Shown: one piece after another, positions 314-17,052 of the stretch
How the letters are laid out: each line of letters starts with the position of its first letter
Position numbering within the stretch: position 1 is the first letter of the stretch
Assembly (NCBI GenBank): GCA_027596195.1
Contig: JADGJG010000531.1
Location: 1-17,052, forward strand
DNA length: 17,052 nt
Origin: Podochytrium sp. JEL0797
Taxonomy: Eukaryota; Chytridiomycota; Chytridiomycetes; Chytridiales; Chytriomycetaceae
Direction of reading: 5' to 3'
Translations under genes and position numbers: made by a program
The notes under the pieces: generated by a model
Databases searched by the model: none
What the model was told of the DNA's origin: nothing
What the model saw: the letters and a program-made list of their open reading frames with translations, nothing else

Positions 314-1327
314 ATGTCAATCGCAGGAACTTGCACCCCATACGAACCAGAACCCTCGACACCTACTCTTTATTGTTCCAAGTATATCAACTATCCTGTC
401 TTCCTGCCTCAAAACTACACCATCGCCGCGATCGAAGGCGTCATCATGTCATGAAAAGCAGCGGTCTCGATATCCTCCTTTCATTGAACAACACGGCCAG
501 TTATCAGCAATGTATCGCTTCTTTTGCCGCACTCACATGTTATAACGCGTACCCGAGTTGTCAAAATTTGACTTCAACCGTCGTCGCGCAAGTCGCGTGT
601 AAATCTCTTTGTGAAACCACCGCCTCGCAGTGCAAAGCCATTTTTGGATTATTCAGAGAAGCTACGATTATTCCTGATTGTGCTGGTTCTGTGGCAACTC
701 TTGCAGCTACTCCATTTTCTTCTAACGCGAAATGCCTTGTATCCGGCGTTGTTGCGGGCCCAAACAATCAGACAATAAGCCCCACCCCTCCGTTAAATCA
801 AACCACAACGCCGCAGTGTGGTTTATTCCTGAAGCCCAATCCACTCTATGTGAACGGCACGTCTCCAGTCATTCCAGGCCAAGCTTGTGTCGGTGCGTGT
901 TGCGTGTCCTGTCCTGAAAACAAGTCCAAGAATACCATCTCCTTCAAGACATCTTGCATCCAATTTCCGTCTTGGGAGCCCTCTTTGTTTTCACATCGTA
1001 CCTGACTTTCTCAAAGAAGAGAAAACATCCGGCCACAATGGCAATGTTCATGTCCCTCTGCGCGATTCCATTCCATCTCGCCTTCTTAATCAGCACGGGA
1101 AACCCTTCTAGATTCACATGCATCGACGAGATTACTCCCATTTATAACGACAGCAGCGCAGTTTGCACGGCACAAGGATTCATCATATTCTACTCCCTCC
1201 TTGCTTTGCCATGTGGTGCTCCTTATTCATGATTTCCCTTCACTTCAAAATCGTTCAAAAAAGCAACTGGTTGGACGACAAGTACGCGTATTTTCACTTC
1301 GTCTGGGTGTTGGGTGCGATCCCCATG
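314..1327 (+). pseudogene. Frizzled-like receptor pseudogene (copy A)
   Basis: This is a broken copy of the seven-membrane-segment receptor found five more times in the window. It starts MSIAGTCTPY like copies B and C, and the cysteine-rich Frizzled-type domain is readable up to the LPxC-like end. Four lesions are seen by comparison with copies B-E. An 8-bp insertion within 441-452 brings a TGA at 452. A deletion of about 22 bp near 917 removes the stretch equivalent to PVYSLYDP. A 1-bp loss occurs around 1190-1212. Homology ends abruptly after the TM4 motif WVLGAIP near 1327, so TM5-TM7 are missing. The remaining pieces lie in three frames. Introns do not explain the breaks, because no GT-AG pair restores the frame and the insertion is absent from all paralogues. 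The 31 bp before the ATG resemble copy B. Confidence 0.88.
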
Positions 1328-1487
1328 TCAAAGGGAGGGAATAACATCTTTGATTGGATCAGTTATTTTCTATTTTTTGAGATGGTAATTTGCAAAGCGG
1401 AAAGAGTGTTTTTTATGGAGAAGAAGAGAATCGAAAATTTATCCCTTCCTTAATTTATTTTTTGAGATCAACAAAAATTTAGAGGAA

Positions 1488-1498
1488 TGAGTCACGTG
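1488..1498. promoter_or_regulatory. Overlapping TGAGTCA and CACGTG motifs
   Basis: TGAGTCA (1488-1494), the classical AP-1/Gcn4-type bZIP site, overlaps the palindromic E-box CACGTG (1493-1498). The composite lies about 80 bp upstream of the ATG at 1575, a typical distance for a fungal upstream activating element. Both motifs are short and could occur by chance. The remainder of 1328-1574 is AT-rich and contains no recognisable gene. Confidence 0.3.
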
Positions 1499-1574
1499 TC
1501 GTCTCCCAGCAAACAAAAAACACGGGTCAAACGGGTGGCGCCCCCGTGCCCCCCAAATTGTTTTTTACTTTGAA

Positions 1575-3092
1575 ATGTCCTCCTCGATCGTCTTCTTGCC
1601 ATTCGTGATGAGCCACTCTTGTTTCCTAGAGGATGCCTCGCACTTTCTAGGGGACACAGCGCGCGCCCTAGACAACAGCGCCCTAGGCGACACTGGGCAC
1701 TCCCTAGGCAATTACCTAGGGGACAGCGGCCTAGACAACGACGCCCTAGACTCCTTTCTAGACGGTTGTATCGAAAGCGGCAACGGCGAAGCGTTTTCTT
1801 TTCTCGACGACGCGGCGAAACGACACCGCGCCTCGTTTTGCCCTGTTGTTTTTTCCCTCGAAAAAGACGCCTCCGCCGCCGAACAACTTGTCTCCGCAGC
1901 GCTTTGCTTCGCCACAAAGTGGAAACACGACGCCTTCAAATCCGCCTTTGTTTTTCCTACCCAGTTCATCTTGGACGCAAAACGCGACTTTTACGCTTCA
2001 AAACGCGTCAACATCCACGGAGAAAATCTCTACCTCGCCTTGATCGATACCCTCACAAACATCAAGTGCTGTCCTTACACCCCATTCCTGATCGACAATG
2101 TCCAATCCGTATTCCCCTTCCTCGATCGCGCCGTGACAGGCGACTTTGTCCACCACAAAATCCTCTCGCACGTCAAAAACCCAAAAAACATTGGCCAACC
2201 CCTCCCACACCTCGAAACCCCCCATTTGCATGACGCCGAATCCTTCATTGCCCCACCCGACAGCATCTTCTCTCTCAAAGACGAATTACTCTCCTACACA
2301 ATCCAAGACGCCCTCGACGACGCATTTTCCGATGAACCAGAATTAAAGAGACAAATGGCGCCCTATCTGGACCTATTTTATTCCCTCTTTTCCGCCGAAT
2401 CGATGCTCGAACCGTTTTGGGAGTTTCTCGTGCAGGAAGGGTTGATCGAATCGTGTTTGCAGCCCGTGTTTGAGAGTTATCTGGACGCCGACAAGGAAGG
2501 GCCAGTTCACCTACCATCGAATCCACCTCTGATTCGAAACAACCCATTCTTGGACGCAGTCGAAATCGCGATCGACCTCGGCGGATCCTCGTTCGGCTCC
2601 AACGCAACCACCCTCTTCTCCCACTCATCCACCCCCACCCCCACCTCCACCCTCTCCCCTCAAAAAACATCTCTACTCATCCACGACTGGCTCTACGTCT
2701 CCCCCGCCTCCGCCTCCCCCTTCACCATGCATGCCCTCGAATTCCGATACGACCGGTTCAAAAATCTCCTCGATTTCGCGGGACTCACGAATCCAGATGT
2801 GGAGTGTGTGTTTGAGTCTGTTGTGGTGTGCGGTGGTGGTGGTGTGGAAGGGTTGGAATCGGGGGATGAAGCTCGGAATGAAGAGGAAGTGCGTGTGGTT
2901 CCGGAAGATTGCACTGGTTTGATGACGGTTCGGAAAATAGGTGAAGGGGTTTTGCGTTTTGATAAGGGGGTGGAGGAGGAGAATGGGAATGGTGATGAAG
3001 TTGATGAGGCTGAGGAGAGCGAAGACGAATGGCCCTGGGAAACCACGAGTGATGACGGCGATGAATATCTCTTCAACCTCGAGTTGTGTTAA
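1575..3092 (+). CDS. Hypothetical protein, 505 aa, with CTA-leucine repeat and acidic tail
   Basis: I do not recognise the family. The ORF is uninterrupted and starts at the first ATG (1575); a second in-frame ATG follows at codon 12. Residues about 17-65 form a low-complexity repeat of LGD/LDN-type units with leucines mostly 4-7 residues apart. Residues about 75-330 have ordinary globular composition, including a run of aromatic and acidic positions such as DLFYSLF and EPFWEFL. A Ser/Thr/Pro linker lies near 345-365, a second globular piece near 368-410, then a Gly/Glu-rich stretch, and a strongly acidic tail about 470-500. There is no signal peptide or membrane segment, so a cytosolic or nuclear protein is inferred. 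It sits between receptor copies A and B on the same strand. A decayed duplicate of its 3' end lies just downstream. Continuous coding potential over 1.5 kb supports a real gene. Confidence 0.7.
   Translation: MSSSIVFLPFVMSHSCFLEDASHFLGDTARALDNSALGDTGHSLGNYLGDSGLDNDALDSFLDGCIESGNGEAFSFLDDAAKRHRASFCPVVFSLEKDASAAEQLVSAALCFATKWKHDAFKSAFVFPTQFILDAKRDFYASKRVNIHGENLYLALIDTLTNIKCCPYTPFLIDNVQSVFPFLDRAVTGDFVHHKILSHVKNPKNIGQPLPHLETPHLHDAESFIAPPDSIFSLKDELLSYTIQDALDDAFSDEPELKRQMAPYLDLFYSLFSAESMLEPFWEFLVQEGLIESCLQPVFESYLDADKEGPVHLPSNPPLIRNNPFLDAVEIAIDLGGSSFGSNATTLFSHSSTPTPTSTLSPQKTSLLIHDWLYVSPASASPFTMHALEFRYDRFKNLLDFAGLTNPDVECVFESVVVCGGGGVEGLESGDEARNEEEVRVVPEDCTGLMTVRKIGEGVLRFDKGVEEENGNGDEVDEAEESEDEWPWETTSDDGDEYLFNLELC
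1626..1761 (+). repeat. In-frame CTAG-containing repeat array
   Basis: Nine CTAG tetranucleotides begin at 1626, 1647, 1668, 1683, 1704, 1716, 1731, 1746 and 1758. Spacings are 21, 21, 15, 21, 12, 15, 15 and 12 bp, all multiples of three. Each is a CTA leucine codon followed by a Gly, Asp or Glu codon. All nine leucines of the stretch use CTA, whereas CTC and TTG dominate in the rest of the gene. This points to expansion of a short repeat inside the coding sequence. Confidence 0.8.
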
Positions 3093-3160
3093 AAAATTGT
3101 ATAAAAAAACGGATTTCCCTGAACTATGGATCGACTCGAAACAGGAGAATGATTTTTATT

Positions 3161-3258
3161 GAGAAGCGAGGATGAATGACCCTGGGAATCAACGATTGAT
3201 GACGGCGATGAATATCTTTTCAATATCGAGTTGTATTAAAAATTGCATAAAAATGACG
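3161..3258 (+). pseudogene. Decayed duplicate of the 3' end of the 505-aa gene
   Basis: This segment aligns with 3015-3111, the last codons and early 3' flank of the upstream gene, at roughly 85% identity by eye. It still encodes a recognisable DDGDEYLFN-type end followed by TAA. The Trp codon TGG of the parent is TGA here (3176-3178 region), so it is not functional. It ends just before the leader of receptor copy B. Either a local tandem duplication or the remnant of a duplicated receptor-plus-gene unit would explain it. Confidence 0.75.
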
Positions 3259-3302
3259 TCGGTATTTGGTCATTTTCGCCATTGAAACTTGCGCTCAAAA
3301 AA

Positions 3303-3335
3303 ACCGAAAACTAATCAAAAAAAAATCGCACAATA
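3303..3335 (+). promoter_or_regulatory. 5' leader shared by receptor copies A and B
   Basis: The 33 bp before the ATG of copy B read CCGAAAA, then A-rich sequence, then AATCGCACAATA. The same string with few changes precedes copy A (about 283-313). It differs from the leader shared by the minus-strand copies C, D and E. This supports A and B as one subgroup with its own 5' region. No TATA box is obvious. Confidence 0.45.
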
Positions 3336-5085
3336 ATGTCAATCGCGGGAACTTGCGTCACATACAAACCAGAGCCGTCAGCGCCGAGTCTTTATTGCTC
3401 CAAGTATATCGATTATCCCGTCTTCTTGCCTCCAAACTTCACCGTTTCGGGAATCGAAGGCGTCATGAAAAGCAGCGGTCTGGATCTGCTTCTTTCGTTG
3501 AACAACACGGCCAGTTATCAACAATGCATTACATCTTTCGTCGAGCTCACGTGCTATAGCGCGTATCCCAGTTGTCAGAGCGTGGCTTCAAACGCGGTCA
3601 CTCAAGTCGCGTGTAAATCTCTTTGTGAAACCACCGCCTCGCAGTGCAAAGCCATCTTTGAATTATTCGGAGAGGGCAAGATTCTTCCTGATTGTGCTGG
3701 CTCGGTGCCGACTCTTCCAGCAGTTCCGTTCTCCTCGGATCCGAAATGCCTCGGATTCAGCTTCGTTGCGGGCTCGAATAATCAGACACGGAGCCCGACA
3801 CCTCAGTTAAATCAAACAGCAACGCCGCAGTGTGGTTTATTCCTGAAACCAAATCCCCTGTATGCGAATGGATCGTTTCCTGTGGTTCCAGGCCAGTCCT
3901 GTGTGGGCGCGTGTTGCCTGACATGCCCTTTCGTTTACAGCCTATACGACCCACAACAAGTCGAAATATACCACCGCTTTCAAGACGTCCTTCATCCAAT
4001 TTCCTTCCTCGGAACCCCTCTTTGTCTTCGTATCGTACGTGAGTTTCCCGAAGAAGAGAAAACACCCCGCCACCATGGCAATGTACATCTCTCTCTGCGC
4101 CATTCCATTCCACCTTGCCTTTATAATCAACACGGGAAACCCTGGAAGATTCTCTTGTCTGGACGATCTAACCGCGGTTTCCAACGACGACAGTCCAATT
4201 TGCACGGCACAAGGATTCATCATTTATTACACACTACTGTTGACTGCCACGTGGTGCACCCTATTCATGATTTCCCTCAACTTCAAAATCGTTCAAAAAA
4301 GCAACTGGCTCGACGACAAGTACGCGTATTTCCACTCCACCTGGGTGTTGGCTGTGATTCCCGTGGCAGTCACTCTTGCATGGGGAAAGTTTGATGCGTT
4401 TGGGAGAATCTGCATGTTTGACCCTGAGATACGTAATGTGTATTTGGTTCCCATGGCTGTGGTGGCGTTGCCTGGGTTTATGGCGCATTTGTGGACCGTG
4501 TTTCGGATTGTGGTTGTGGCGATTGATATGATTCGGATCCAAGGGATCCCGAGTTTCAAGATGGAGTCTGTGGAGGGAGAAGCGAGAATTTCGGCAACTA
4601 CGCGAGTCACCGCGGTTGCTCCTGCATTCTCAAAAAGGGATACATCCTCTGTGGCCGTTACTTCGATACCTGGTGCGCCTCCTGTCCGCATTAGTTTTAA
4701 TCAAGAAGCTTTGAAAAGGAAGACGCGTCTGGCTTGGGAACAATTGAATGCGTATTGGAGACCGGTGGGACTGACGGTGTTTTTTGCGGTAATTGTGGCG
4801 ACAGTTTGGAATTATTATAATGATGCAGCAATCAAATTCCCTGCACTATTGAGTAACTCCCATCCGTCCAACGCTGTGGTGGATTGGTACACATGTGCAG
4901 TGACGGGAAACACGCAAGCTCAGTGCGCCTCCTTACTCGATGGTTTAATCCCATCATTTAACGAAATGATGACTGCCGACGTTCTCTTGTCGTCGATTGG
5001 ATTTGCTTTTTTCCTCTTTTTTGGGACCGGGCAGTTTGCCGAGTGGAAGGAGCTTTTCTTTGGAGGAAACAAGTCGCCCTCATAA
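3336..5085 (+). CDS. Frizzled-like seven-TM receptor, copy B, one-base frameshift
   Basis: This is a Frizzled/Smoothened-family GPCR with a Frizzled-type domain. The N-terminal part, in the frame of 3336, has cysteines at residues 7, 21, 64, 73, 80, 93, 97, 104, 120 and 138, then a stalk with NQT sites and the CVGACCLTC cluster. At the four-C run 4015-4018 there is one C more than the paralogues need. Downstream of it the frame of 4018 carries TM1 (LFVFVSY) through TM7 and the end EWKELFFGGNK. Read through with the shift it would be about 582 residues, the usual size here; taken literally, the first frame ends after 352 residues. A homopolymer sequencing error or a very young pseudogene are both possible. 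The third loop (about residues 405-465) is Ser/Thr-rich and diverged. The short C-terminal tail lacks KTxxxW. No signal peptide is seen at the N-terminus. Confidence 0.85.
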
Positions 5086-5119
5086 CCCCACAGGCTTTAA
5101 GTTGATGATTTTTGAAGAA

Positions 5120-5542
5120 TTATATTAGATTTGCTTTAAATAAGTACGTAGAAAAAGGAGAGAGAGGTAGGTCAAGATCACGCGATTCGAAGTTGACCAG
5201 AACCAAATCGCCACGCTCAAGCTCGAGAAACGAAGGATCATTAGTTTCCAAAGAGGGCATGTCGGACACAAAAAATTCAACGCCGAGGGCGGTTTCGGAC
5301 GCGAAGATCTTGATAACTTCGCGAGATTTCGTTCCGCTGAAATTCGAGAAGCAGAAGACGCCAGTTTGATGGTGAAGCTGGCGAAGATCTATTTTCAAAT
5401 GATGGCCCACGACAGTTTGTCCAAAACGGGTCTGCCAAAAACCTTGTACTCCAATTAACTTTCCAGGTTTGGCGGAGTTGCATTCAATGTGAGTCAAAAC
5501 GTCAGAAGTTCCATCGATTTCGACGAGCATGTAAAGGTGCAT
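5120..5542 (-). CDS. Possible small hypothetical protein, 140 aa
   Basis: An ATG-started minus-strand ORF of 140 codons is convergent with receptor copy B, 34 bp beyond its stop. Its amino-acid composition is protein-like, with mixed hydrophobic and charged residues and beta-prone stretches such as VEFFVSD and DLVLVNFESRDLDL. An in-frame stop lies nine codons upstream of the ATG, so it does not extend further 5' without splicing. I do not recognise a family. There is no signal peptide or membrane segment. The opposite strand is also open for 85 codons but begins with TTG and looks like a shadow. It may be a degenerate fragment or an exon of a gene I cannot assemble. Confidence 0.3.
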   Translation of the reverse strand: MHLYMLVEIDGTSDVLTHIECNSAKPGKLIGVQGFWQTRFGQTVVGHHLKIDLRQLHHQTGVFCFSNFSGTKSREVIKIFASETALGVEFFVSDMPSLETNDPSFLELERGDLVLVNFESRDLDLPLSPFSTYLFKANLI

Positions 5543-6887: not shown

Positions 6888-8364
6888 TCATCCCAACACA
6901 TTTTCGCCCTTCAGCTCCTCCTCATCCTCATCAAACACATCCTCCCACCCATCCGATGGCTCCGAGACTTTTTCCGTTGACTCAGCACGGTCTTTCAACG
7001 ATTCTACACACTTCAACGAAACAGCATCTCCGTCATTGACTTCCGCCGTCTCCACTTCGTTTACCACAGCATCCCCGCCATTTCCCACTGGTGACTTTTC
7101 CCAAACACTCGAATTCTCAAGACTCAATGTAGGTGTAATGGGGTCCGAATCGTGCGGAATTGTCTCGGCGGTCGCGTTGCTACCCGCAATCGACCTGCGC
7201 CCTCTCGAAACACTTTTCCCTTCAGAGCTCGAAATGCGCGACACGGAGGACGCATTGCTGCTGGTTCTGATGGATTTCAAAGACCCAGTGGATCTGGAGG
7301 AAGCGCGTGAGGCGGCCATGGATTCAAAGAGCTATATAATTGGGGCGGGTTGTTGAATACGTTTTTGACGCCGCGTGTTCTGAATTTAACTCACCTCTCG
7401 CAATTCCCCGAGTTCTCTCTCCAACCCTTCCACTCTCGCTTCCACAAGCCCTTTTTCGGATCTCAACGCGTCCACTTTACGTTCCAAGTTGCCCACGGTA
7501 TCGGCCTTTTCTTTCATCAAACTCGAAACATGATCCATGAGAATACTCTCCCTCAGAATACGCGATTCCAACTCTTCGGTCACACGACGCAGGGAACGCG
7601 TGAGACCCGCGTTGGTAGCTTCGAGGGCCTGAATATGAGTCTCGGCAACTTCCGCATAACTGTCGGATTTGTTGTTCAACCCAGCGAGAGCAAGCGGACG
7701 GTACTGATCCAAATTCGCTCTCAGCGCCGTCACTTCCTCCGTCAATCCTTGCACATCCGCCGCGTCCGTGTCAACACCGCGTCGATCAGGTACCCCCAGC
7801 AAGCGATTCAACATCGGAATCCGCACACCAGCCAAATGAGCAGCAGCAGCACCCAACACGCTCACAAGGGCCACGCCTCCAATGACAGGGAGGACCTTGA
7901 CGGCAAGAACAGCAACGGTTTTGAGCATGGACGCGAGGGATTTCCAGGAATCGAGGCCGAGGGATGGTGAGTTACGAAAGGAGATTTGCTGGGCAGACGG
8001 GTTGAAGAGGTATTTGTGGGATAAGACGATGGTGGGGGAGAGTGCGAGTGGGGAGGCAAGTGTGGCACTGGGAGTGGCACTTTTGGCCATGTGGGCGCTG
8101 AGGGCAGCGGCGGCAGCGAGGGACTGGGGGGAGTGTTGTGAGTGTTTCCAAGTATAGAGAATGCAGGGAATTCCTCACCCGTGCGAGTTCTTTGGCGCCC
8201 AGGGAACCGCCAACCTTTCTCATCAGAGTCGCCAGGGATTCAAGAGCCGTGGTCTGGGCATCCAGGAAGCGCTGCGAGTTGGAAGCCAGGGCGAATTCAA
8301 AGACGGGGAGCGAGGCGCCAACAGGAACGCCGAGCGAAGGCACGCGGAGAATCGAAGGGTGCAT
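6888..8364 (-). CDS. Membrane-anchored coiled-coil protein, three exons (452 aa)
   Basis: Three minus-strand ORFs join into one gene through two phase-0 GT-AG introns: exon 1 8364-8179, exon 2 8123-7395, exon 3 7331-6888. The start is the ATG at 8364; the frame is open further upstream but I saw no earlier ATG in the part I read. Residues about 63-73 are Ala-rich. About 128-161 form a strongly hydrophobic helix or hairpin (VLAVKVLPVIGGVALVSVLG). About 185-305 are a long heptad-like coiled coil rich in Glu, Arg and Leu (for example RKVDALRSEKGLVEARVEGL). After the last splice the protein is Ser-rich and ends in an acidic tail (GWEDVFDEDEEE). It is probably an integral membrane protein with an oligomerising domain, perhaps of an organelle. 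I do not recognise the family. It is divergent from the gene at 8896 across a 531-bp shared upstream region. Confidence 0.72.
7332..7394 (-). other. Intron 2 (63 bp) of the coiled-coil gene
   Basis: In transcript sense the intron begins with the perfect donor GTGAGT after codon GAG and ends ATATAG. A possible branch site TTCAAC lies about 25 bases before the acceptor. Removal keeps the frame (phase 0) and links the coiled-coil end ELRE to LFES and the Ser-rich exon. Confidence 0.7.
8124..8178 (-). other. Intron 1 (55 bp) of the coiled-coil gene
   Basis: In transcript sense the intron starts GTGAGG and ends CCCCAG, with a CTCAC branch-like element about 20 bases before the acceptor. Splicing is phase 0 and joins KELAR to SLAAAAALSAH, restoring one reading frame between two otherwise separate ORFs. 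Confidence 0.75.
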
Positions 8365-8895
8365 TTTGCGTCTTTTCAAACCACGTGGCAAAATATTCCA
8401 AACAAAAAGGAAAGGGAGAAAACGATGGAATAGAGACCATATCTGAATTATACTACAGGTTCAACAACTGAGCTTTTCGTGTCCGATAAGATATTTTTTT
8501 TAGTCTCAACACGTGTAATCCGATCACTTAATCAACTTACACAAATTGGGATTAGGACGTCGGGCTAAACAAAAAAAAGGTGTTATCATTGATCTTGCTT
8601 TTTGATTGCTGGGCTTGTGACTGCGCAATCGCACGGGGATCGACACCTTGTCGCTCCTAGTCCCCCGGGATTGAGAAAGCAGCAAGGTTCTCGCCGGCAT
8701 CGTGAGACATCATAGAACACATACTACAGCTTAAGGCTTCCCTCCATTTGCTGCCGCACGCGGAGCACAAAAGGAGAGCGGACTTGGCCACAAGTGTCGG
8801 GCAAAGCAAAAAAATTTCCGATTTGATCTGAAAAAATTGGATAAAAACGAGGCGCATCCAAGAGTTTTGATTTTTCTAATCCAAAAATCCTCGGC
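8365..8895. promoter_or_regulatory. Shared divergent upstream region
   Basis: These 531 bp separate the start of the minus-strand coiled-coil gene (8364) from that of the plus-strand secreted protein (8896) and must hold both promoters. A TATA-like GGATAAAAAC lies at 8839-8848, about 50 bp before the ATG at 8896. A CACGTG E-box occurs at 8382-8387, in the 5' flank of the minus-strand gene. No other gene or repeat is visible. Confidence 0.45.
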
Positions 8896-9210
8896 ATGCA
8901 GTCCATCCTCGCCCTCCTCACCCTCGCCGCCTCCGCGATCGCTCAGTCTGCCTCTGCCTCTGCTGGCGCGGCCTCCGCCTCCGCCTCCGCGAATGCCAGT
9001 GCGGCCCCTGCCACGACTGCCCCCGTTGTCGTAACAAACCAAGATCCTGCTGCCTCCACCGGATACGTGCCCATTGCTCCCACCGCGTACGTTGCCCCTG
9101 TCGCTGCCTACACCGCGCCTGGAGCACCCGCCAACCTCTACAAGGGCGCTGCGACCTCTGGCACAGTCTTAAGCATGGCGGCTGCTATCGCTGCTGGCCT
9201 TGTTCTTTGA
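8896..9210 (+). CDS. Small Ser/Ala-rich secreted, probably GPI-anchored protein (104 aa)
   Basis: The N-terminus MQSILALLTLAASAIAQ is a classical signal peptide with likely cleavage after AIAQ (residue 17). Residues about 18-40 are Ser/Ala repeats encoded by imperfect GCCTCC/GCCTCT hexamers. A middle region follows with Pro, Tyr and Val (YVPIAPTAYVAPVAAYTAP). The C-terminus (about 80-104) has a small-residue stretch AATSG and then a hydrophobic end MAAAIAAGLVL, the layout of a GPI-attachment signal. There are no cysteines; one N-glycosylation sequon NAS is present. Codons are strongly biased to C-ending forms, which suggests high expression. By analogy with fungal cell-wall proteins it is probably displayed at the surface; no enzyme domain is present. 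A TATA-like box lies about 50 bp upstream and AATAAA lies 29 bp after the stop. Confidence 0.8.
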   Translation: MQSILALLTLAASAIAQSASASAGAASASASANASAAPATTAPVVVTNQDPAASTGYVPIAPTAYVAPVAAYTAPGAPANLYKGAATSGTVLSMAAAIAAGLVL

Positions 9211-9629: not shown

Positions 9630-11357
9630 CTATTCCCCAAAAATTAAGACTTTCCAATCTGCAAATAGAGCCGTCCCAAAAAATAAGAATATTGCCGATC
9701 CAATTGATGCCATGAGAAAGTCAGCAGTCATCATTTCATTAAATGACGGGATTGAACTATCGAGTAAGGAGGCGCACTGAGCTTGCGTATTTCCCATCAC
9801 TGCACATGTATACCAATCCACCAGTGCTTTGGGTGGAAGGGCGCTATCCAATAGTGCCCCTAGGCGGATTGCTGCATCATAGTAATAGTTCCAAAGTGTC
9901 ACCACAATTACAGCAAACGCAATCGTCAGTCCCACAGGTCTCCAATAAGTCTTAAGTTGTTCCCAAGCAACCTTCCTCTTCTTGGCCAATGCTGCTTGAT
10001 CAAATAATGGTCTGGAAGGAGGGGAACCCGTCGGATGAGCGGCCACTGATGAGAGGTTCTTTTTCGAGACGTTCAAAGGACGCGCCGTGACCCCAGTCGA
10101 TCCCGAAGTTCCCACTTCTCCTCCCCCATTCCCCACCTGGAGAGTCGGAACTCCTTGAATCCCAATCACATCCATCACCACCAACACAATCTCAAACACG
10201 GTCCACACATGCGCCACAAACCCAGGCAACGCGACCACAGCCATGGGAATCAAATATACATTGCGGATCTGAGGTTCGAAAATACAGATTCTCCCAAACG
10301 AATCAAACTGGCCCCATGCGAGAGTGACTACCACGGGAATCGCGCCCAACACCCAGACAGTGTGGAAATACGCGTACTTGTCGTCCAGCCAGCTGCTTTT
10401 TTGAACGATTCTGAAGTTGAGGGAAATCATAAACAGAGTGCACCACATGACAATCAGCAACAGCATATAAAATATGACAAAGCCTTGTGCAGTGCAAACT
10501 GCGCTGCTGTCGTTGTAAACTGAGGTGAGTTCGTCTACACAAGAGAATCGCGCAGGGTTTCCCGTGTTGATCATGAAGGCTAGATGCATTGGAATCGCGC
10601 AGAGAGAGATGTACATTGCCATTGTGGCGGGGTGTTTTCTCTTCGTAGGGAAGGTCATGTACGACACGAACACAAAGAGAGCTCCAAAGAAGGACACTGG
10701 GTGAAGGATATCTTGAAAGTGGTGGTATATTGCGACTTGTCGTGGGTCGTATAGACTATATACTGGAGGACAGGAAACGCAACACGCACCCACGCAGGCC
10801 TGGCCTGGAATCACAGGAAACGATCCGTTGACATACAGTGGATTGGGTTTCAGGAATAACCCACACTGAGGTGTTGTCGTTTGGTTTATCGGGGGAGTGG
10901 GACTTATTGTCTGATTTTTGTTCGACCCCAGGCTGGATCCCAGGCATTTCGGGTCGGAAGAAAATGGAGTTCCTGGAAGAGTCGGCACCGATCCGGAGCA
11001 ATCAGGAAGGTTCTTGGCCTCGCCAAATAATCCAAAAATGGCTCTGCACTGCGCGATGGTGGTTTCACAAAGGGATTTACACGCGACTTGAGTGACCGCG
11101 TTTGAAGCCACGCTCTGGCATCTCGGATACGCGCCATAACACGTAAGAGCGACAAAAGAGGTGATGCAATTCTGATAACTGACGGTGTTGTTCAACGAAA
11201 GAAGCAGATCGAGACCGCTGCCTTTCATGATGCCTTCAATTCCCTCGACGGTGTAGTTTTGAGGCAAGAAGACGGGATAATCAATGAACTTGGAGCAATA
11301 AAGACTCGGAATCGAGGTCTCTAATTCGTACGGGGTACAAGTTCCCGCGATTGACAT
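9630..11357 (-). CDS. Frizzled-like seven-TM receptor, copy C (575 aa, intact)
   Basis: This is an intact Frizzled/Smoothened-family receptor. Residues 7-138 hold ten cysteines (7, 21, 64, 73, 80, 93, 97, 104, 120, 138) with the Frizzled-domain landmarks YPVFLP, YPRC, CKSLC and LPDC. A stalk with repeated NQT sites follows, then CVGACCVSC (188-196). Membrane segments are near 216-236, 246-264, 289-312, 328-348, 367-399, 474-492 and 544-562. Family-typical features are the basic KRKHPATMAMYISLC entry to TM2, CTAQG before TM3, WLDDKYAYFH before TM4 and the paired cysteines of the last extracellular loop (518, 528). The protein stops 13 residues after TM7, without KTxxxW. The N-terminus is not a signal peptide. 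By family it should be a plasma-membrane receptor; ligand and coupling are unknown. Its central part is almost identical to copy D. Confidence 0.93.
   Translation of the reverse strand: MSIAGTCTPYELETSIPSLYCSKFIDYPVFLPQNYTVEGIEGIMKGSGLDLLLSLNNTVSYQNCITSFVALTCYGAYPRCQSVASNAVTQVACKSLCETTIAQCRAIFGLFGEAKNLPDCSGSVPTLPGTPFSSDPKCLGSSLGSNKNQTISPTPPINQTTTPQCGLFLKPNPLYVNGSFPVIPGQACVGACCVSCPPVYSLYDPRQVAIYHHFQDILHPVSFFGALFVFVSYMTFPTKRKHPATMAMYISLCAIPMHLAFMINTGNPARFSCVDELTSVYNDSSAVCTAQGFVIFYMLLLIVMWCTLFMISLNFRIVQKSSWLDDKYAYFHTVWVLGAIPVVVTLAWGQFDSFGRICIFEPQIRNVYLIPMAVVALPGFVAHVWTVFEIVLVVMDVIGIQGVPTLQVGNGGGEVGTSGSTGVTARPLNVSKKNLSSVAAHPTGSPPSRPLFDQAALAKKRKVAWEQLKTYWRPVGLTIAFAVIVVTLWNYYYDAAIRLGALLDSALPPKALVDWYTCAVMGNTQAQCASLLDSSIPSFNEMMTADFLMASIGSAIFLFFGTALFADWKVLIFGE
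10332..10528 (-). repeat. Near-identical tract shared with copy D (12762-12958)
   Basis: The 197 bp differ at only two positions (10401 and 10506) from 12762-12958 in copy D. In contrast, 10261-10331 has 16 differences in 71 bp and 10529-10630 has 16 in 102 bp. The tract covers TM3, the following loop and TM4. The identity includes third codon positions, which fits a recent gene conversion. Confidence 0.75.
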
Positions 11358-11384: not shown

Positions 11385-12049
11385 ACAGGAATATAGGATT
11401 TACATACATGTGCCGGATTTTACCGCTATCGATATCAATAACTAACAGTAATTTCACAGTAATTTTTATCGTCAAATACCGATATTTATCGTCGGATAAG
11501 AAATACCGTTATCGGTGATCAAGCAAATCATTATTATTAAAATCAAGGAATACGTTGGTGATTCAGGAGTTCGTCAGAAGTTTGTACATCGACGAAGTAT
11601 GAATAATCTCTTTTATCAAATTCCATAAACAAGAAATCCGCATGCCACGTGGGAGAAACGCGCTCGGGATGTCTCGGATTCGACTTGTGTGTTTGATTGA
11701 AGAGTATCACTTGAGGTACCTAAAGAAGTATTACACTACAACTCGCTTGACTGCGTGCCTCTCGTTGTATGCCACTTGGAAAGGGGTGAGAGGTGGCAGG
11801 TTTCAAGAACTCCTGAATGGCACCACAAGGTGAAGTTGTCGTCCACGAGCCCCAATGTAGGTTGGAGAAACTTTCTGTGATTACAAAGTTGTTACGTTAC
11901 GTTTAATTCATTTTTGTGAGAGAAATCATACATTCAATTTTTTTTTATTCTTGTTTATTTGGACGGTTTATATTTACCTTAAGTATATCTTATGATAGCG
12001 GTAATCGACGATAATTAGCGACTGGTTATCGATATTTACCGTCCTGTAT
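11383..12049. mobile_element. Candidate non-autonomous inverted-repeat element (about 0.67 kb)
   Basis: This spacer between D and C differs from the short spacers D/E and E/F. Its ends carry inverted matches: ATACAGGA at 11383-11390 against TCCTGTAT at 12042-12049, and TACCGCTATC at 11421-11430 against GATAGCGGTA at 11994-12003. Subterminal TATCGATA, ATCGTC and TACCG motifs recur in both orientations, including a 13-of-14 direct match (11480-11493 and 12030-12043). The interior has no credible ORF. No target-site duplication could be identified and the inverted repeats are imperfect, so the boundaries are approximate. If real, it lies 25 bp beyond the stop of copy D and in the upstream region of copy C. 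Confidence 0.4.
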
Positions 12050-12073
12050 CGATTTCGTCGTTATCTAAAGCAT

Positions 12074-12079
12074 TTTATT
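12074..12079 (-). terminator. AATAAA overlapping the stop codon of copy D
   Basis: In the sense of copy D the end reads GTGAAATAAAATG, so the AATAAA hexamer includes the TAA stop (12075-12077). The candidate element starts only about 25 bp further on, so this may be the only polyadenylation signal left to the gene. Confidence 0.35.
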
Positions 12080-13790
12080 TCACTTCACCAAAGAAAAAGA
12101 TTCTCCACTCGCCAAACAGTGCGGTCCCAAAAAATAAGAAAATAACTGATCCAATCAATGCCATGAAAATGTCTGATGTCATCATTTCAGTAAAAGATGG
12201 GATTAAACCATCGAGTAAGGAGGAGCACTGAGCTTGCGTGTTTCCCGTCACTGCACATGTGTGCCAATCCACCAGAGCCTTGGGTGGAATAGCAGTATCC
12301 AATAGTGCCCCCATACGGACTGCTACATCATCGCAATAGTACCAAAGTGTTGCCACAATTACTGCAAACGCGATCGTCAGTCCCACAGGTCTCCAATATG
12401 CAATCAATTGTTCCCAAGCAACCTGCCTCTTCTTGGCCAATGCCTCTTGATCGAATAATGGTCGGGTAGAAGAGGGTCTGATAGAAGAGGGTCTAGTAGA
12501 AGATGTACCCGTCGTCGGAGCTTTACTTGGTCCCGAATTTCCCACTTCTCCTCCCCCATTCCCCACCTTGAGAGAAGGAACTCCTTGAATCCCAATCACA
12601 TCCATCACCACCAACACAATTTCAAACACGGTCCACGCATGCGCAACAAATCCCGGCAAGGCCACGGCAGCCATGGGAATCAAAAACACATTGCGGACCG
12701 GTGGTTGAAAAACGCAGATTCTCCCATACGAATTAAACTGGCCCACCGCGAGAGTATATATCACGGGAATCGCGCCCAACACCCAGACAGTGTGGAAATA
12801 CGCGTACTTGTCGTCCAGCCAGCTGCTTTTGTGAACGATTCTGAAGTTGAGGGAAATCATAAACAGAGTGCACCACATGACAATCAGCAACAGCATATAA
12901 AATATGACAAAGCCTTGTGCAGTGCAAACTGCGCTACTGTCGTTGTAAACTGAGGTGATTTCGTCTACACAAGTGAATCGCGCAGGATTTCCTGTGTTGA
13001 TCATTGAGGCGAGATGTAATGGAATGGCACAGATGGACATGTACATTGCCATTGTCGCCGGGTGTTTTCTCTTCTTGGGGAAAATCATGTATGACGTGAA
13101 CACAAAGAGAGCTCCAAACAAGGATAATGGGTGAAGAATGTCTTGAAAGCGGTGGTATGTTTCGACTTGTTTTGGGTCGTACATGTTGTAGACGGGAGGA
13201 CACGAAAGGCAACAGGCGCCGACACAGGATTGGCCAGGAATCACAGGAAAAGATCCGTTCAAATACAGTGGATTGGGCTTCAGGAATAAGCCACACTGCG
13301 GTGTTGTTGTTTGATTTGACGGAGGGATCGGGCTCGGTGTCTGATTGTTCGAGCTGGCAACGAAGCTGGATCCCAGGCACTTTGGGTCTGAAGAAAACTG
13401 AGTTCCTGGAAGAGTCGGTACCGAGCCAGCACAATCAGGAAGAATCTTGACCTCTCCGAATAATCCAAAGATGGCTGTGCATTGAGACACGGTGGTTTCG
13501 CAAAGAGATTTACACGCGACTTGAGTGACCGCGTTTGAAGTCACGCTCTGGCAACTCGGATACGCGCCATAGCAAGTGAGTGCGACAAAGGTGGTTATAC
13601 ATTGCTGATAACTTGGGGTGTTGTTCAACGAAAGAAGTAGATCGAACCCGCTGCTTTTCATGACGCCTTCGATTCCAGTCACGGTGTAGTTTCGAGGCAA
13701 GAACACAGGATAGTTGATGAACTTGGAGCAATAAAGACTCGGAGTTGAGGGTCCAGGCACATATGGCTGGCAGGTTCCTATAATTGACAT
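12075..13790 (-). CDS. Frizzled-like seven-TM receptor, copy D (571 aa, intact)
   Basis: This is an intact paralogue with the same ten-cysteine N-terminal domain (7 to 138), stalk, CVGACCLSC cluster (189-197) and seven membrane segments (about 217-237, 247-265, 290-313, 329-349, 368-400, 466-485, 540-558). The third intracellular loop, about residues 401-460, carries a small STRPSSIRPSSTRP repeat absent from the other copies, followed by the conserved RPLFDQ-ALAKK and WEQ entry to TM6. The C-terminus after TM7 is only about 13 residues (EWRIFFFGEVK). No signal peptide is seen before the first cysteine. The 5' flank and spacer are shared with copy E, while TM3-TM4 is shared with copy C, so the gene looks like a mosaic. 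By family it is a surface receptor; ligand unknown. Confidence 0.93.
   Translation of the reverse strand: MSIIGTCQPYVPGPSTPSLYCSKFINYPVFLPRNYTVTGIEGVMKSSGFDLLLSLNNTPSYQQCITTFVALTCYGAYPSCQSVTSNAVTQVACKSLCETTVSQCTAIFGLFGEVKILPDCAGSVPTLPGTQFSSDPKCLGSSFVASSNNQTPSPIPPSNQTTTPQCGLFLKPNPLYLNGSFPVIPGQSCVGACCLSCPPVYNMYDPKQVETYHRFQDILHPLSLFGALFVFTSYMIFPKKRKHPATMAMYMSICAIPLHLASMINTGNPARFTCVDEITSVYNDSSAVCTAQGFVIFYMLLLIVMWCTLFMISLNFRIVHKSSWLDDKYAYFHTVWVLGAIPVIYTLAVGQFNSYGRICVFQPPVRNVFLIPMAAVALPGFVAHAWTVFEIVLVVMDVIGIQGVPSLKVGNGGGEVGNSGPSKAPTTGTSSTRPSSIRPSSTRPLFDQEALAKKRQVAWEQLIAYWRPVGLTIAFAVIVATLWYYCDDVAVRMGALLDTAIPPKALVDWHTCAVTGNTQAQCSSLLDGLIPSFTEMMTSDIFMALIGSVIFLFFGTALFGEWRIFFFGEVK
12467..12503 (-). repeat. 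15-bp tandem repeat in the third loop of copy D
   Basis: On the plus strand TAGAAGAGGGTCTGA (12467-12481) is followed by TAGAAGAGGGTCTAG (12482-12496) and a partial third unit beginning TAGAAGA at 12497. Each unit encodes five residues of the S-S-T/I-R-P type. It is an in-frame expansion confined to copy D. Confidence 0.75.
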
Positions 13791-13940
13791 AATGGAGAAC
13801 TAAAATCTTGGTGAACAATAAAGGGCAAAACTTCCACAGGGCGTTCTGCTTTCTACTGGTAGAATATGAGAATTTATTGGCGTGGTTTTTTTCTCGTGGA
13901 ATTATCCCAATTCCGTTTTCGTTGTTTTCAGTAGTTGCCG

Positions 13941-14000
13941 TCCAGACTGCTGACCAAAACCACAATTCTCCGATGGGACAGCTTCCTCACCGATTTTATC
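13941..14000 (-). promoter_or_regulatory. Conserved spacer block between copies E and D
   Basis: This 60-bp block matches 15986-16045, in the spacer between copies F and E, at 54 of 60 positions. The flanking spacer (about 13836-13940) is more diverged. It lies about 150-210 bp upstream of the ATG of copy D and contains TTTTGGTCAG and TCCCATCGGAGAATT in transcript sense. It is a candidate upstream regulatory element, though it could simply reflect recent duplication. The rest of 13791-14104 contains no gene. Confidence 0.4.
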
Positions 14001-14104
14001 CTTTAATTTCATAACGTGAAAAAAAGTGAAGGGAAAGAGAATTCGAAAGAACAAAAATATTCATTTTTTGCTTCCAAAGAAATAAACTTTCCAGTCAGAA
14101 ATCA

Positions 14105-14138
14105 GTCCCGTTCAAGGGATTATGCCCTTGGTCCCGTT
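14105..14138. mobile_element. 26-bp micro-insertion with 8-bp flanking repeat in copy E
   Basis: GTCCCGTT at 14105-14112 is repeated at 14131-14138. Between the copies lies an 18-bp palindrome, CAAGGG-ATTATG-CCCTTG (14113-14130). Copies C, D and F lack it. An 8-bp target duplication and CAAGGG-type ends are features of hAT-superfamily DNA transposons, so it may be a transposon remnant or footprint. It is inside the coding region after the FFGTG motif at the end of TM7 and supplies the premature TAA at 14122-14120. Confidence 0.55.
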
Positions 14139-15835
14139 CCAAAAAAAAAGAAAATTGAGGATCCAACGTATGCAAGGAGCATGTCCGCAATCATCATTAG
14201 ATTGAAAGACGGGATAGTACCAACAAGTAAGGGAGCGCACTGAGCTTGCGTGTTTCCGGTCACTGCACATGTGTACCAATCCATCATAGCTCTGGGGCGA
14301 TTAGTACTGTCCAAAAGTCCAGCATATGCCACTGCTGCATCCCTGTAATACATCCATGTTGTCGCCACGATGACCGCAAACGAAATTGCCAATACCACGG
14401 GTCTCCAAAAAGTCTTGACCTGTTCCCATACGATCTGCTTCTTCTTCTTTAGCGCAGCTTGATCGAATAATGGTCTGGAAGGAGGGGGGCCTGCCGTCGG
14501 AGGAGCGGCCACGGCAGACAAGTCGTTTTTCGAGAATTTCATGGGATTCGCCGTGACTCCAGTAGATGCGGCATCCACAACACCTCCTGCCACATTTTCC
14601 ACCTTCAAACTCGGAATTCCTTGTATCCCAATCATATCAATCGCGACAGCCACAATCCGACATACGGTCCACAAATGCGCGACAAATCCAGGTATCGCCA
14701 CCACCACCATGGGAACCAAATACATATTGCTAATCTCGATTTCGAAAGTGCAGATTCTCCCAAACGAAAAAAACTTGCCCCATGCGAGCGTGACGGCCAC
14801 GGGAATCGCGCCCAACACCCAAGCGGAATGAAAATACGCGTATTTGTCGTCCATCCAATTGCTGCTTTGAACGAGTTTGAAATTGAGGGAAATCATGAAG
14901 AGAGTTTTCCACATGACAATCACAAGAAGCATGTAAAATATGATCACTCCTTGTGCCGTGCAAATTGCGCTGTCGTTGTTGAAAACCGTGGTGATTTCGT
15001 CCACACACGTAAATCGGGCAGGGTTTCCAGTGTTGAGCATGAAGGCGAGGTGCATTGGAATCGCGCAAAGGGAGATGTACATTGTCATCTTGGCGGGGTG
15101 TTTTCTTTTGTTGGGGAAAGTCATGTATGACGTGAACACAAAAAGAGCTCCAAAGAAGGAAATCGGATGAAGGATATCTTGAACTAGATGGTACATTTCG
15201 ACTTCTTTTGGGTCATATAGGCTGTATACGGGAGGGCAGGAAACACAACACGCACCCACGCATTGTTGTCCTGGGATGATTGGAAACGATCCATTCACAT
15301 AGAGGGGATTTGGCTTCAGGAATAAACCACACTGCGGTGTTGTTGTTTGATTTAATGGAGGAGTGGGGCCTATTGTCTGATTGCTGGGAGTGGGGCCGAT
15401 CGCAACAACGCTAGATCCAAGGCATTTTGGATCCGAAGAATATGAAGTTCCTGGAAGAGTTGGCACCGATCCAGAGCAATCAGGAAGAGTCTTGACCTCT
15501 CCGAATAATCCAAAGATGGCTGTGCATTGAGACACGGTGGTTTCGCAAAGGGATTTACACGCGACTTGAGTAACCGTGTTTGAAGACACGCTCTGACAAC
15601 TCGGATACGCGCCGTAGCAAGTGAGGACGACAAAAGAGGTGATACATTGCTGATAACTGACGGTATTGTTCAACGAAAGAAGCAGATCGAGCCCTTTGCT
15701 TTTCATGACGCCTTCGATTCTGGCGATGGTGTAGTTTTGAGGCAAGAAGACGGGATAGTCGATATACTTGGAGCAATAAAGACTTGGAGTTGAGGGTCCA
15801 GGCACGTATGGCTGGCAGATGCCCATAACTGACAT
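14120..15835 (-). CDS. Frizzled-like seven-TM receptor, copy E (571 aa, C-terminus altered)
   Basis: This copy has the ten-cysteine N-terminal domain, a stalk lengthened by a repeated GPTP-NQT unit, the CVGACCVSC cluster and seven membrane segments in the usual order. The conserved last extracellular loop VDWYTCAVTGNTQAQC appears here as MDWYTCAVTGNTQAQC. The reading frame ends FFFFGTGPRA because of the 26-bp insertion at 14105-14138. Beyond it, the original tail is still readable in another frame as LISDWKVYFFGSKK followed by TGA, as in copy F. The loss affects only the short segment after TM7, so the receptor core may still fold. No signal peptide is visible. It is more similar to F than to C or D around TM2-TM4. 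The leader and spacer match those of D. Confidence 0.9.
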   Translation of the reverse strand: MSVMGICQPYVPGPSTPSLYCSKYIDYPVFLPQNYTIARIEGVMKSKGLDLLLSLNNTVSYQQCITSFVVLTCYGAYPSCQSVSSNTVTQVACKSLCETTVSQCTAIFGLFGEVKTLPDCSGSVPTLPGTSYSSDPKCLGSSVVAIGPTPSNQTIGPTPPLNQTTTPQCGLFLKPNPLYVNGSFPIIPGQQCVGACCVSCPPVYSLYDPKEVEMYHLVQDILHPISFFGALFVFTSYMTFPNKRKHPAKMTMYISLCAIPMHLAFMLNTGNPARFTCVDEITTVFNNDSAICTAQGVIIFYMLLVIVMWKTLFMISLNFKLVQSSNWMDDKYAYFHSAWVLGAIPVAVTLAWGKFFSFGRICTFEIEISNMYLVPMVVVAIPGFVAHLWTVCRIVAVAIDMIGIQGIPSLKVENVAGGVVDAASTGVTANPMKFSKNDLSAVAAPPTAGPPPSRPLFDQAALKKKKQIVWEQVKTFWRPVVLAISFAVIVATTWMYYRDAAVAYAGLLDSTNRPRAMMDWYTCAVTGNTQAQCAPLLVGTIPSFNLMMIADMLLAYVGSSIFFFFGTGPRA

Positions 15836-16082
15836 AATGGAGATCTAAAATCTTGGCGAACAATAAAGGGCGAAACTTCCAGGGCTTTCTAGTTTCTACT
15901 GGGAGAATATGAGAATTTGATGGTGGTTTTTTTGTCTTCCCCAATCTAGATTCGGTTACGTTTCTTCAAAATCAGAAAGGCGCAGTCCAGACTTCTGACC
16001 AAAACCAGAATTCTCCGATGGGACTGCTTCATCGCCGACTTTATCATGACGAGAAAGAGAAGTCAAAAAAGAACAATAATAT
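15836..16082 (-). promoter_or_regulatory. Spacer between copies F and E with conserved leader and 60-bp block
   Basis: The part next to the ATG of copy E (15836-15881) matches the leader of copy D almost base for base, and 15986-16045 matches the conserved block at 13941-14000. The segment nearest copy F (16046-16082) also resembles the sequence after the original stop of copy E. The whole spacer was therefore duplicated together with the gene. It contains no coding sequence. Confidence 0.45.
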
Positions 16083-17052
16083 TCATTTTTTTCTCCCAAA
16101 GAAAACCTTCCACTCTGAAATCAGTCCCGTCCCAAACCACAAGAAAGTCGAGGATCCAACGTATGCAAGGAGAACGTCCGCAATCATCATTAAATTGAAA
16201 GATGGGATTGTACCAGCGAGCAATGGGGCGCAATGAGCTTGCGTGTTTCCGGTTACTGCACACGTGTACCAATCCATCATAGCTCTGGAAGGATTCGCAC
16301 TATCCAACAGTCGACCATATGCCACTGCTCCATCTCTGTAATACATCCACACTGTCGCCATAACTACCGCAAACGAAATCGCCAACCCCACGGGTCTCCA
16401 AAAAGCCTTGAACTGTTCCAAGACAATCTGCCTCTTCTTTTTCAGCGCAGCATAATCGAATATGTGTCGAGAAGGAGGGGCATCCGCCGTCGGAGGAACG
16501 GCTACAGATGACAGGTCATTTTTCGAGAATTTTGAATGACCCGCGGTCACTCCAGTAGGTCCTGCATCTACCACAACTCCTCTCACATTTTCCACCTTGA
16601 AACTCGGAATTCCTTGTATCCCAATCATATCAATCGCCACCGCCACAATCCGACACACGGTCCAAAAATGCGCGACAAGCCCGGGCAGCGCCGCCACCGC
16701 CATGGGAATCAAATACACATTGCTAATCTCGATTTCGAAAATGCAGATTCTCCCAAACGAGAAAAACTTTCCCCGTGCGAGAGTGACTGCCACGGGGATC
16801 GCGCTCAACACCCAGACCAAGTGAAAATATGCATACTTGTCGTCCAGCCAATTACTTTTTTGAACGAGTTTGAAGTTGAGGGAAATCATGAAGAGGGTTT
16901 TCCACATGACAATCGCGAGCATCATGTAGAATATGATAAATCCCTGCGCTGTGCAAATTGCGCTGTCGTTGTTGAAAACTGTGGTGATTTCGTCCACACA
17001 CGTGAATCGGGCAGGGTTTCCCGTGTTGATCATGAAGGCGAGGTGCATTGGA
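16083..17052 (-). CDS. Frizzled-like seven-TM receptor, copy F (partial, C-terminal part)
   Basis: The gene runs off the right edge of the window; only the part from the middle of TM2 (PMHLAFMINTG) to the stop is visible, about 322 codons. It contains the conserved cysteine loop with NNDSAICTAQG, TM3 to TM7, the third loop with SRHIFDYAALKKKRQ, the final extracellular loop VTGNTQAHC, and an end EWKVFFGRKK after TM7. No break is seen in the visible part. It is the closest relative of copy E and shows the ancestral C-terminus that E has lost. The array may continue beyond 17052. Confidence 0.92.
   Translation of the reverse strand, partial: PMHLAFMINTGNPARFTCVDEITTVFNNDSAICTAQGFIIFYMMLAIVMWKTLFMISLNFKLVQKSNWLDDKYAYFHLVWVLSAIPVAVTLARGKFFSFGRICIFEIEISNVYLIPMAVAALPGLVAHFWTVCRIVAVAIDMIGIQGIPSFKVENVRGVVVDAGPTGVTAGHSKFSKNDLSSVAVPPTADAPPSRHIFDYAALKKKRQIVLEQFKAFWRPVGLAISFAVVMATVWMYYRDGAVAYGRLLDSANPSRAMMDWYTCAVTGNTQAHCAPLLAGTIPSFNLMMIADVLLAYVGSSTFLWFGTGLISEWKVFFGRKK

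Follow-up and report, generated by a model that had tools for sequence, protein, structure and literature searches.

A converging array of class F (Frizzled/Smoothened)-like receptor genes, and the multi-clade family to which it belongs, predicted from the genome of the chytrid Podochytrium sp. JEL0797

The window analysed here spans an entire contig (17,052 bp) of Podochytrium sp. JEL0797 (Chytridiomycota) and contains six paralogous genes for predicted class F (Frizzled/Smoothened)-like receptors. They are members of a family represented in the genome by at least 29 copies or fragments, which lie on nine contigs, many of them in tandem, and fall into three clades. In clade III, to which the window copies belong, introns and a contiguous N-terminal signal peptide are absent. 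The local expansion had been proposed by a first-pass annotation of the window, which also named some early-diverging fungi among the organisms with such receptors; the expansion is confirmed, and the host is a fungus of that kind. Frizzled-like receptors in chytrids have already been published; the new part is the array, the scale of the family and the loss of the signal peptide.

The six copies together account for about 52% of the window (sum of coordinates) and form two converging arms, A and B on the plus strand and C–F on the minus strand, separated by 4.5 kb that contain no receptor match. Coordinates and identities thus confirm the annotated layout of two plus-strand and four minus-strand paralogs filling about half of the window. 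Coding-region DNA identity is 0.635–0.845 over the 15 pairs formed by all six copies, far above chance, and 0.721–0.845 over the ten pairs without copy A. Copy A (314..1327), identified with tblastn and Pfam, is a broken, 3′-truncated relic with the cysteine-rich domain (CRD), linker and first transmembrane segments (TMs) in several frames; its four tblastn pieces occupy three frames, and the match ends at residue 342 of copy C. Copy B (3336..5085), recognized from Pfam and two overlapping open frames (3315–4394 and 3922–5085), is near full-length and changes frame close to the first TM. On the minus strand, copy C (9630..11357) is complete, encoding 575 residues with the CRD at about residues 1–142 and seven TMs, but neither a signal peptide nor an intron. 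Copy D (12075..13790; 571 residues) is likewise complete, and copy E (14120..15835; 571 residues) is complete and open, its last residues after TM7 being unlike those of its paralogs. Copy F (16083..17051), which covers the family from residue 256 onward and is 67% identical to copy C over residues 256–575, is cut short by the end of the contig. The presence of pseudogenes in the array therefore stands, as judged from the pieces of A, the two frames needed for B and the altered end of E, although the frame changes may also be sequencing errors. A dispersed repeat (11406..11743), of which three more partial copies with 68–81% identity occur in the genome, starts no more than about 50 bp upstream from copy C, and what this copy has in common with D and E ahead of its ATG is limited to about 30 bp. 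Rfam and tRNA searches of the window gave no match, and neither a plasmid search nor a viral-contig scan revealed a relative.

We asked how well the Frizzled assignment is supported by Pfam, using the curated cut-offs of 22.3 bits for Frizzled (PF01534) and 32.1 bits for Fz (PF01392). Frizzled scored above its cut-off in copies C (31.9 bits), D (30.8) and E (35.0), of which it is the best Pfam match, as well as in the 3′ part of B (35.5) and a piece of A (22.5); copy F had no Pfam match at E ≤ 1. No other 7TM receptor family, including Dicty_CAR and 7tm_2, matched C, D, E or the 3′ part of B at E ≤ 1. The Fz model matched C (25.8 bits, E = 1.6e-5) and D (23.0 bits, E = 1.2e-4) with significant E-values but below the curated cut-off, so that of the two matches expected for these copies the Frizzled one was obtained in full and the Fz one in part. 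A piece of copy A (25.1 bits) and the first frame of B (28.6 bits) also remained below 32.1 bits, as did all scanned receptors of this genome (19.5–28.6 bits) and all 11 matches of a genome scan for Fz (best, 30.9 bits). Outside the window, Frizzled exceeded its cut-off in two clade III copies and did not match a third; one clade I example scored 16.6 bits, below the cut-off, and one clade II example had no match. Among 12 family members, comprising also the Benniella protein described below and four exon-joined sequences, Fz matched 12 and Frizzled seven at E ≤ 0.01, while at the same threshold Dicty_CAR (1.9e-5) and 7tm_2 (5.5e-5) each matched one. NCBIfam contained no family for any of five proteins.

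The more decisive evidence comes from the cysteines and from profile comparisons. In clade III, all ten cysteine columns of the CRD hold Cys in 12 of 12 covered rows. Nine of these columns also hold Cys in every covered row of clades I and II except one (column 120, five of six rows in clade II); the first column is covered by a single row in each clade, with Cys in clade I and another residue in clade II. The loop cysteines at positions 273, 288, 358, 518 and 528 are kept in every covered row. When the family profile was compared with PDB sequences, all 25 distinct sequences at E ≤ 0.001 were Frizzled or Smoothened (best, 4e-12); the best matches span CRD and 7TM, many others only the 7TM part. 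A CRD-only profile matched Frizzled in 16 of 16 cases at E ≤ 1 (best, 0.008). Because the ten CRD cysteines are conserved and the profiles, compared with sequences of solved structures, match Frizzled/Smoothened, we take the family as settled, in agreement with the earlier assignment to Frizzled-type receptors with a CRD. We nevertheless prefer “class F-like” to Frizzleds proper, since the KTxxxW motif (as defined in PMC10445921) is missing after TM7 from the family alignment, which ends in an FGTxxxxxWK-like sequence; according to that review, most D. discoideum Fsl receptors lack the motif likewise. The annotated seven-TM topology holds for copy C, in which a crude hydropathy scan found exactly seven segments, and otherwise by homology, as the scan gave six segments in D and E; in three copies from other contigs it gave five or six. 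AlphaFold2 models of copy C and of its CRD, built from eight and six alignment rows, were poor (pLDDT 39.3 and 48.1). In a fold search with the full-length model, five of the top six matches were Smoothened (E = 0.06–0.31, none ≤ 0.001), and one with the CRD model included no Frizzled CRD among the matches listed and no match at E ≤ 0.001; we do not count either search as evidence. We also considered the class F switch, R6.32–W7.55. Residue 473 is an arginine throughout the family alignment, but we do not claim the switch, as the alignment of TM6/TM7 to animal receptors is too weak.

Next, we focused on the family in the whole genome, in which five of the 29 copies reach a contig end. In the tree, which comprises copies with at least 300 aligned residues (thus without C438b, C674a and C674d), support is 100 for clade III and 97 for clades II and III together. 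Each clade has its own gene format: clade I genes combine signal peptides with about five introns, clade II genes keep only the 5′-most intron, at a position identical in clades I and II, and clade III genes have none. N-terminal signal peptides are usual for class F receptors. By hydropathy, they were found at all eight clade I starts, where the signal peptide shares an exon with the beginning of the CRD, and at none of 14 clade II/III starts, including those of window copies A–E. These 14 are from 21 clade II and III copies; C841b, C674a and C674b were left out of the count, and starts were missing in C557b, in F and C438b (cut by contig ends) and in C369 (no ATG there). Moreover, at nine of ten clade III starts examined, the upstream sequence runs to a stop codon or to its end without an in-frame ATG; the remaining start is that of the fused copy C101c. 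The direction in which introns and signal peptides changed is uncertain, because the tree is rooted on one remote sequence whose branch is very long.

The family is under purifying selection. The dN/dS ratio was 0.18–0.42 in 13 of 13 pairs at dS of 0.4–2.5, and the compared copies have therefore been constrained for long. Pairwise comparison placed the CRD and linker among the more conserved parts, the third cytoplasmic loop was the most variable region in eight of the 11 pairs measured for it, and the extracellular domain displayed no sign of diversifying selection in the pairs compared. Conversion between copies, also suggested by the first-pass annotation, is supported for C–D and D–E. Copies C and D are 83% identical overall, but 98 and 99% identical in 100-column windows from CDS positions 826 and 901; their longest run of matching variable sites (CDS 855–949) was reached in none of 5000 permutations. 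The probable tract in copy C lies at 10358..10532 on the minus strand, with approximate limits. Among the six pairs put to the permutation test, C–D and D–E gave 0/5000 and C–E 18/5000, whereas E–F, B–C and B–D were not significant. The likeness to the birth-and-death evolution of chemosensory families consequently holds for the pattern (29 copies, relics, conversion), but not for diversifying selection, of which there is no sign, the CRD and linker being conserved.

Could the receptors belong to another 7TM class, such as the cAMP-receptor, secretin/adhesion or a fungal class, with the Frizzled likeness being a cross-match? Cross-matches do occur in this genome. PF01534 has 18 matches, of which we excluded from the family six on C712, C113 and C778, CRD-less receptors of about 300 residues; two were scanned and match other classes better, and the remaining ones were judged by eye. 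For the scanned C712 protein, 7tm_2 (45.4 bits) comes ahead of Frizzled (31.9 bits, the score of copy C); for the C113 protein, both 7tm_1 (36.7 bits) and 7tm_2 (35.3 bits) come ahead of it (Frizzled, 21.0 bits). Since a CRD-less receptor reaches 31.9 bits, the Pfam Frizzled model lacks specificity in this genome when taken by itself. The single Dicty_CAR and 7tm_2 matches in the 12-member set also speak for a cross-match. However, copies C, D and E have Frizzled as their best match with no rival family at E ≤ 1, the family carries the Fz domain with its cysteines, and class B receptors enter the PDB profile search only from E = 0.03 up. This alternative is largely refuted, and we regard it as highly improbable. 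A less remote, though still unlikely, alternative is that the array is mostly decaying, a functionless tandem amplification kept similar by conversion. It is consistent with the damage or truncation seen in A, B, C557b and C369, with the repeat close upstream of copy C and with the fused frame in C101. The long constraint recorded by the dN/dS values and the continued conservation of the cysteines argue against it.

The signal peptide might also not have been lost at all, if an upstream leader exon, perhaps one per tandem array, were spliced to each cassette so that splicing selects the receptor. In favor of such an arrangement, D and E have in common a TTTTAG that precedes the ATG by 9 nt and is followed by an open frame, and C101 contains two copies 16 nt apart, too close for promoters of their own, and two that share one frame. 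Candidate leader exons were found upstream of three of nine tested copies. On the other hand, the remaining six have none in up to 1 kb (313 bp only for A), the candidates differ between copies, and shuffled upstream sequences yield a candidate in 5–38 of 100 cases. Moreover, copy C has the same acceptor-like site 7 nt before its ATG in a different phase, and in clade I the signal peptide shares its exon with the CRD start. A shared acceptor or leader exon is thus not supported, and we consider this arrangement very unlikely.

We consider it likely, if far from certain, that these are class F-like GPCRs sensing a non-Wnt ligand and that clade III is an amplified, mRNA-derived group without introns and signal peptides. 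The ancestor would have been a multi-exon gene with a signal peptide, in the format of clade I. A partly spliced, 5′-shortened mRNA intermediate may have given rise to clade II, with the 5′-most intron left and no signal peptide, and further loss to the intronless clade III. The latter would then have been amplified by unequal exchange into tandem rows of compact cassettes, tandem duplication being followed by gene conversion and decay under purifying selection. An intact copy is predicted to begin with an extracellular Fz-type domain containing ten cysteines, followed by a linker that also bears cysteines and by seven membrane helices, and its export would most likely rely on TM1 as a reverse signal anchor. 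Against this, the lack of a signal peptide is unusual for a CRD receptor and might indicate genes that are dying or mislocalised. The best reading of function is that of G-protein-coupled sensors of a non-Wnt ligand, probably lipid-like or a small environmental molecule, which the CRD and linker would bind. Signaling may proceed through some of the G-alpha proteins of this genome, for which 35 matches on nine contigs were assigned by eye to about twelve loci, and zoospores or young thalli would be the site of action. Neither Wnt (PF00110) nor DIX (PF00778) matched in the genome, a result without a positive control, as 14 control genomes had none either, and hence no proof of the absence of Wnt stated in the first-pass annotation. 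A more elaborate version, which we put forward only tentatively and think rather doubtful, is a fungal odorant-receptor-like repertoire of the Frizzled class, born from mRNA as intronless, signal-peptide-free tandem cassettes (16 nt apart in one place, and in part fused), in which a disulfide-rich N-terminal domain of about 200 residues would cross the ER membrane with no signal peptide and non-Wnt cues would be perceived for the zoospore.

Its class F family, large and intact in part, and its roughly twelve G-alpha genes make this chytrid a non-animal setting in which ligand and coupling of Frizzled-class sensing can be tested where no Wnt is known. Occurring together in one genome, the three gene formats constitute a natural series for changes of gene structure in a receptor family. 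Export of so large an N-terminal domain, rich in cysteines and lacking a signal peptide, presents a cell-biological puzzle.

The family resembles animal Frizzled/Smoothened in the CRD–linker–7TM order, the cysteine framework and the best PDB profile matches, and differs from them in having neither KTxxxW nor, in the clade II/III members examined, a signal peptide. Krishnan et al. (2012, PMC3251606) describe class F receptors of another chytrid, Spizellomyces punctatus (SPPG_01720 and SPPG_06172), as basal to the animal members; compared by description, the two genes of that genome stand against no fewer than 29 copies or fragments, many of them tandemly arranged, in Podochytrium. Fungal GPCR class 17 (Frizzled), as delineated by Liu et al. 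(2025, PMC12842992) with the same two Pfam models as used here, comprises 187 sequences among 1357 fungal species and is nearly absent from Ascomycota and Basidiomycota; in the main text of that paper, a word search finds no mention of Podochytrium, tandem or signal peptide. Among the matches listed by a search of 5.8 billion proteins, the sole relative was a hypothetical protein of Benniella sp. (J3Q66DRAFT_163239; 23% identity over 88%), a single sequence whose listed form misses the first part of the CRD; that search requires shared exact 5-residue words and so says nothing about absence from other chytrids. The dictyostelid Fsl/Fsc receptors are reported as a class F expansion in amoebae, with Frizzled domain matches often below threshold and, in D. 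discoideum, KTXXXW in FslJ and FslK only (PMC10445921). According to the same source, dictyostelid members are mostly without a recognizable CRD, whereas the Podochytrium family keeps the CRD and it is the signal peptide that is missing.

The window is contig C481 in full (17,052 bp), from a genome of 24.4 Mb in 995 contigs. Two joined frames of that genome's gene for the second subunit of RNA polymerase III match the Podochytrium sp. JEL0797 protein at 100% identity across an alignment of 61% of the query, ahead of Chytriomyces confervae at 90% and Chytriomyces sp. MP71 at 89%; the organism is thus a chytrid fungus. The first-pass annotation had described six Frizzled-like receptor copies in two converging arms, and both its coordinates and its reading of the sequence were correct. 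Two copies, C with 575 aa and D with 571 aa, are complete in one open frame each. Copy E also has a complete frame, with residues at its end, past TM7, that are unlike those of its paralogs. Copy B is split into two overlapping frames, copy A consists of four pieces in three frames with a match that ends at residue 342 of C, and copy F runs past the contig end. Coding DNA identity between window copies ranges from 0.635 to 0.845 (15 pairs).

A genome search with copy C returned 69 matches on nine contigs; sorted by hand, these amount to 29 copies or fragments. Five copies touch contig ends (F, C557c, C438b, C369 and C674d), so the actual count could be different. Built from 26 of the 29 and rooted with the distantly related Benniella protein J3Q66DRAFT_163239, the tree resolved three clades, each with support of 100: clade I (eight copies or fragments on contigs C224 and C694), clade II (six on C841 and C674) and clade III (15 on the window contig, C101, C557, C438 and C369). 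Clades II and III group together with support of 97. The branch leading to the root is very long, and within the window only the grouping E+F has more than weak support.

The family assignment made in the first-pass annotation is borne out by Pfam Frizzled (PF01534), CRD cysteines and profile matches. The Frizzled cut-off is exceeded by C, D, E and the 3′ part of B, and barely reached by a piece of copy A (22.5 versus 22.3 bits); copy F has no Pfam match at E ≤ 1. In this genome the model is unspecific on its own, as a receptor on C712 that lacks the CRD also scores 31.9 bits, behind 7tm_2. For Pfam Fz (PF01392), E-values are significant, with bit scores under the cut-off of 32.1. At E ≤ 0.01, Fz matches all 12 family members, the Benniella protein included, and Frizzled matches seven of them. 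When a profile of the 12 members was compared with sequences of solved structures, all 25 distinct matches at E ≤ 0.001 were Frizzled or Smoothened (best 4e-12), followed by a Frizzled-3 CRD (0.013) and then by weaker class B receptors. A profile of 13 CRDs gave 16 such matches at E ≤ 1, every one of them Frizzled, the best at only 0.008. All ten CRD cysteines are present in each of the 12 covered rows of clade III; in clades I and II, nine cysteine columns are complete but for a single row, and coverage of the first is slight. The KTxxxW motif, which belongs to the class definition (PMC10445921), was not found in the alignment of the Podochytrium family. We therefore refer to these proteins as class F-like receptors. 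According to the same source, most D. discoideum Fsl receptors also lack the motif.

Signal peptides divide the clades. All eight clade I starts have one (eight-residue hydropathy peak of 2.27–2.94 inside the first 30 residues), and none was found in the 14 starts examined among the 21 copies of clades II and III (1.00–1.90). These 14 proteins begin two to seven residues ahead of the first cysteine. Of ten clade III starts examined, nine have no in-frame upstream ATG before a stop, and the tenth sits within a fused frame. In a search of up to 1 kb upstream, no spliced-on leader exon was found for six of nine copies; candidates for the other three are not common between copies and are chance-like. 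As its cysteines are conserved, the CRD is probably still delivered to an oxidising compartment and, given the missing signal peptide, TM1 acting as a reverse signal anchor would be the simplest route. The receptors probably couple to G proteins and bind a non-Wnt ligand through the CRD and linker. Grouping 35 matches on nine contigs by eye gives about twelve G-alpha loci in the genome, and searches of it with Wnt and DIX models, run without a positive control, gave no match.

Gene format also differs by clade. Clade I has about five introns (one copy, read by eye). Clade II keeps one, the 5′-most, beginning seven bases past the Cys80 codon, at the same position as in clade I; clade III is without the introns of either. 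The Cys80 intron starts with GT in all eight clade I copies. Among the clade II copies other than C674a, the motif could be located in all but C841b; three of these four copies have GT at the intron start and one has GC. Intron loss via reverse-transcribed mRNA is expected to leave just the 5′-most intron, and such an event may have given rise to the clade II format. Copies C557a and C557b (C557:29000–36000) seem to have acquired a different intron: an in-frame TGA lies within a short GT..AG stretch exclusive to these two, which is probably a gained intron. The C557b match begins only at residue 187, so its CRD is gone.

Judged from sequence, the history of the array is one of birth, conversion and decay of copies long kept functional. 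Copies C and D are 83% identical overall and 98–99% identical in windows from CDS 826 and 901. None of 5000 permutations (0 of 5000) gave a stretch of agreeing variable sites as long as the longest one seen between C and D, and the same held for D–E; for C–E, 18 of 5000 did, and three further pairs were not significant. Over all codons, dN/dS is 0.18–0.42 in 13 of 13 pairs, and the copies have therefore long been kept functional. Among the 11 pairs that include the third cytoplasmic loop, this is the region of highest dN/dS in eight, with values up to 0.78. CRD values are 0.12–0.36, with no visible diversifying selection on the extracellular domain, although region averages may mask single sites.

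On the minus strand of C101 (62500–72000), three receptor copies are packed almost end to end. Just 16 nt separate the stop of the first copy from the ATG of the next, which shares with the third copy a single 1129-aa open frame containing two CRDs and two 7TM regions. Such a fusion would put the second CRD on the wrong membrane side; the close packing and fusion could be an assembly effect.

The presence of class F in chytrids is already known. Two Frizzled receptors were reported in Spizellomyces punctatus (Krishnan et al. 2012, PMC3251606), a survey of 1357 fungal species counted 187 such sequences (Liu et al. 2025, PMC12842992), and Frizzled homologs with Fz domains in fungi and amoebozoans are cited in PMC12716839. 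The main text of PMC12842992 does not contain the words Podochytrium, tandem or signal peptide, and titles and abstract starts in the open-access literature yielded no report of a comparable chytrid array. What is new is the scale, the tandem format and the loss of the signal peptide.

Between A and B lies an orphan 509-aa frame (1563–3092) with no Pfam family at E ≤ 1; it is single-copy in the genome, save for a 3′-end relic at 3162–3233, directly upstream of B. A minus-strand frame at 7386–8174 has weak coiled-coil-type Pfam matches, with DUF1664 under its cut-off. The small plus-strand frame at 8878–9210, with a signal-peptide-like start, Ser/Ala-rich body and hydrophobic tail (by eye), looks like a GPI-anchored wall protein. 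A repeat at 1–142, with an imperfect palindrome at 40–76, recurs on C772 (88% over query 4–142). On C712, C113 and C778 there are other groups of receptors, about 300 aa long and without a CRD, most of them in single open frames; the two proteins scanned from these groups match 7tm_2, 7tm_1, Dicty_CAR and Frizzled.
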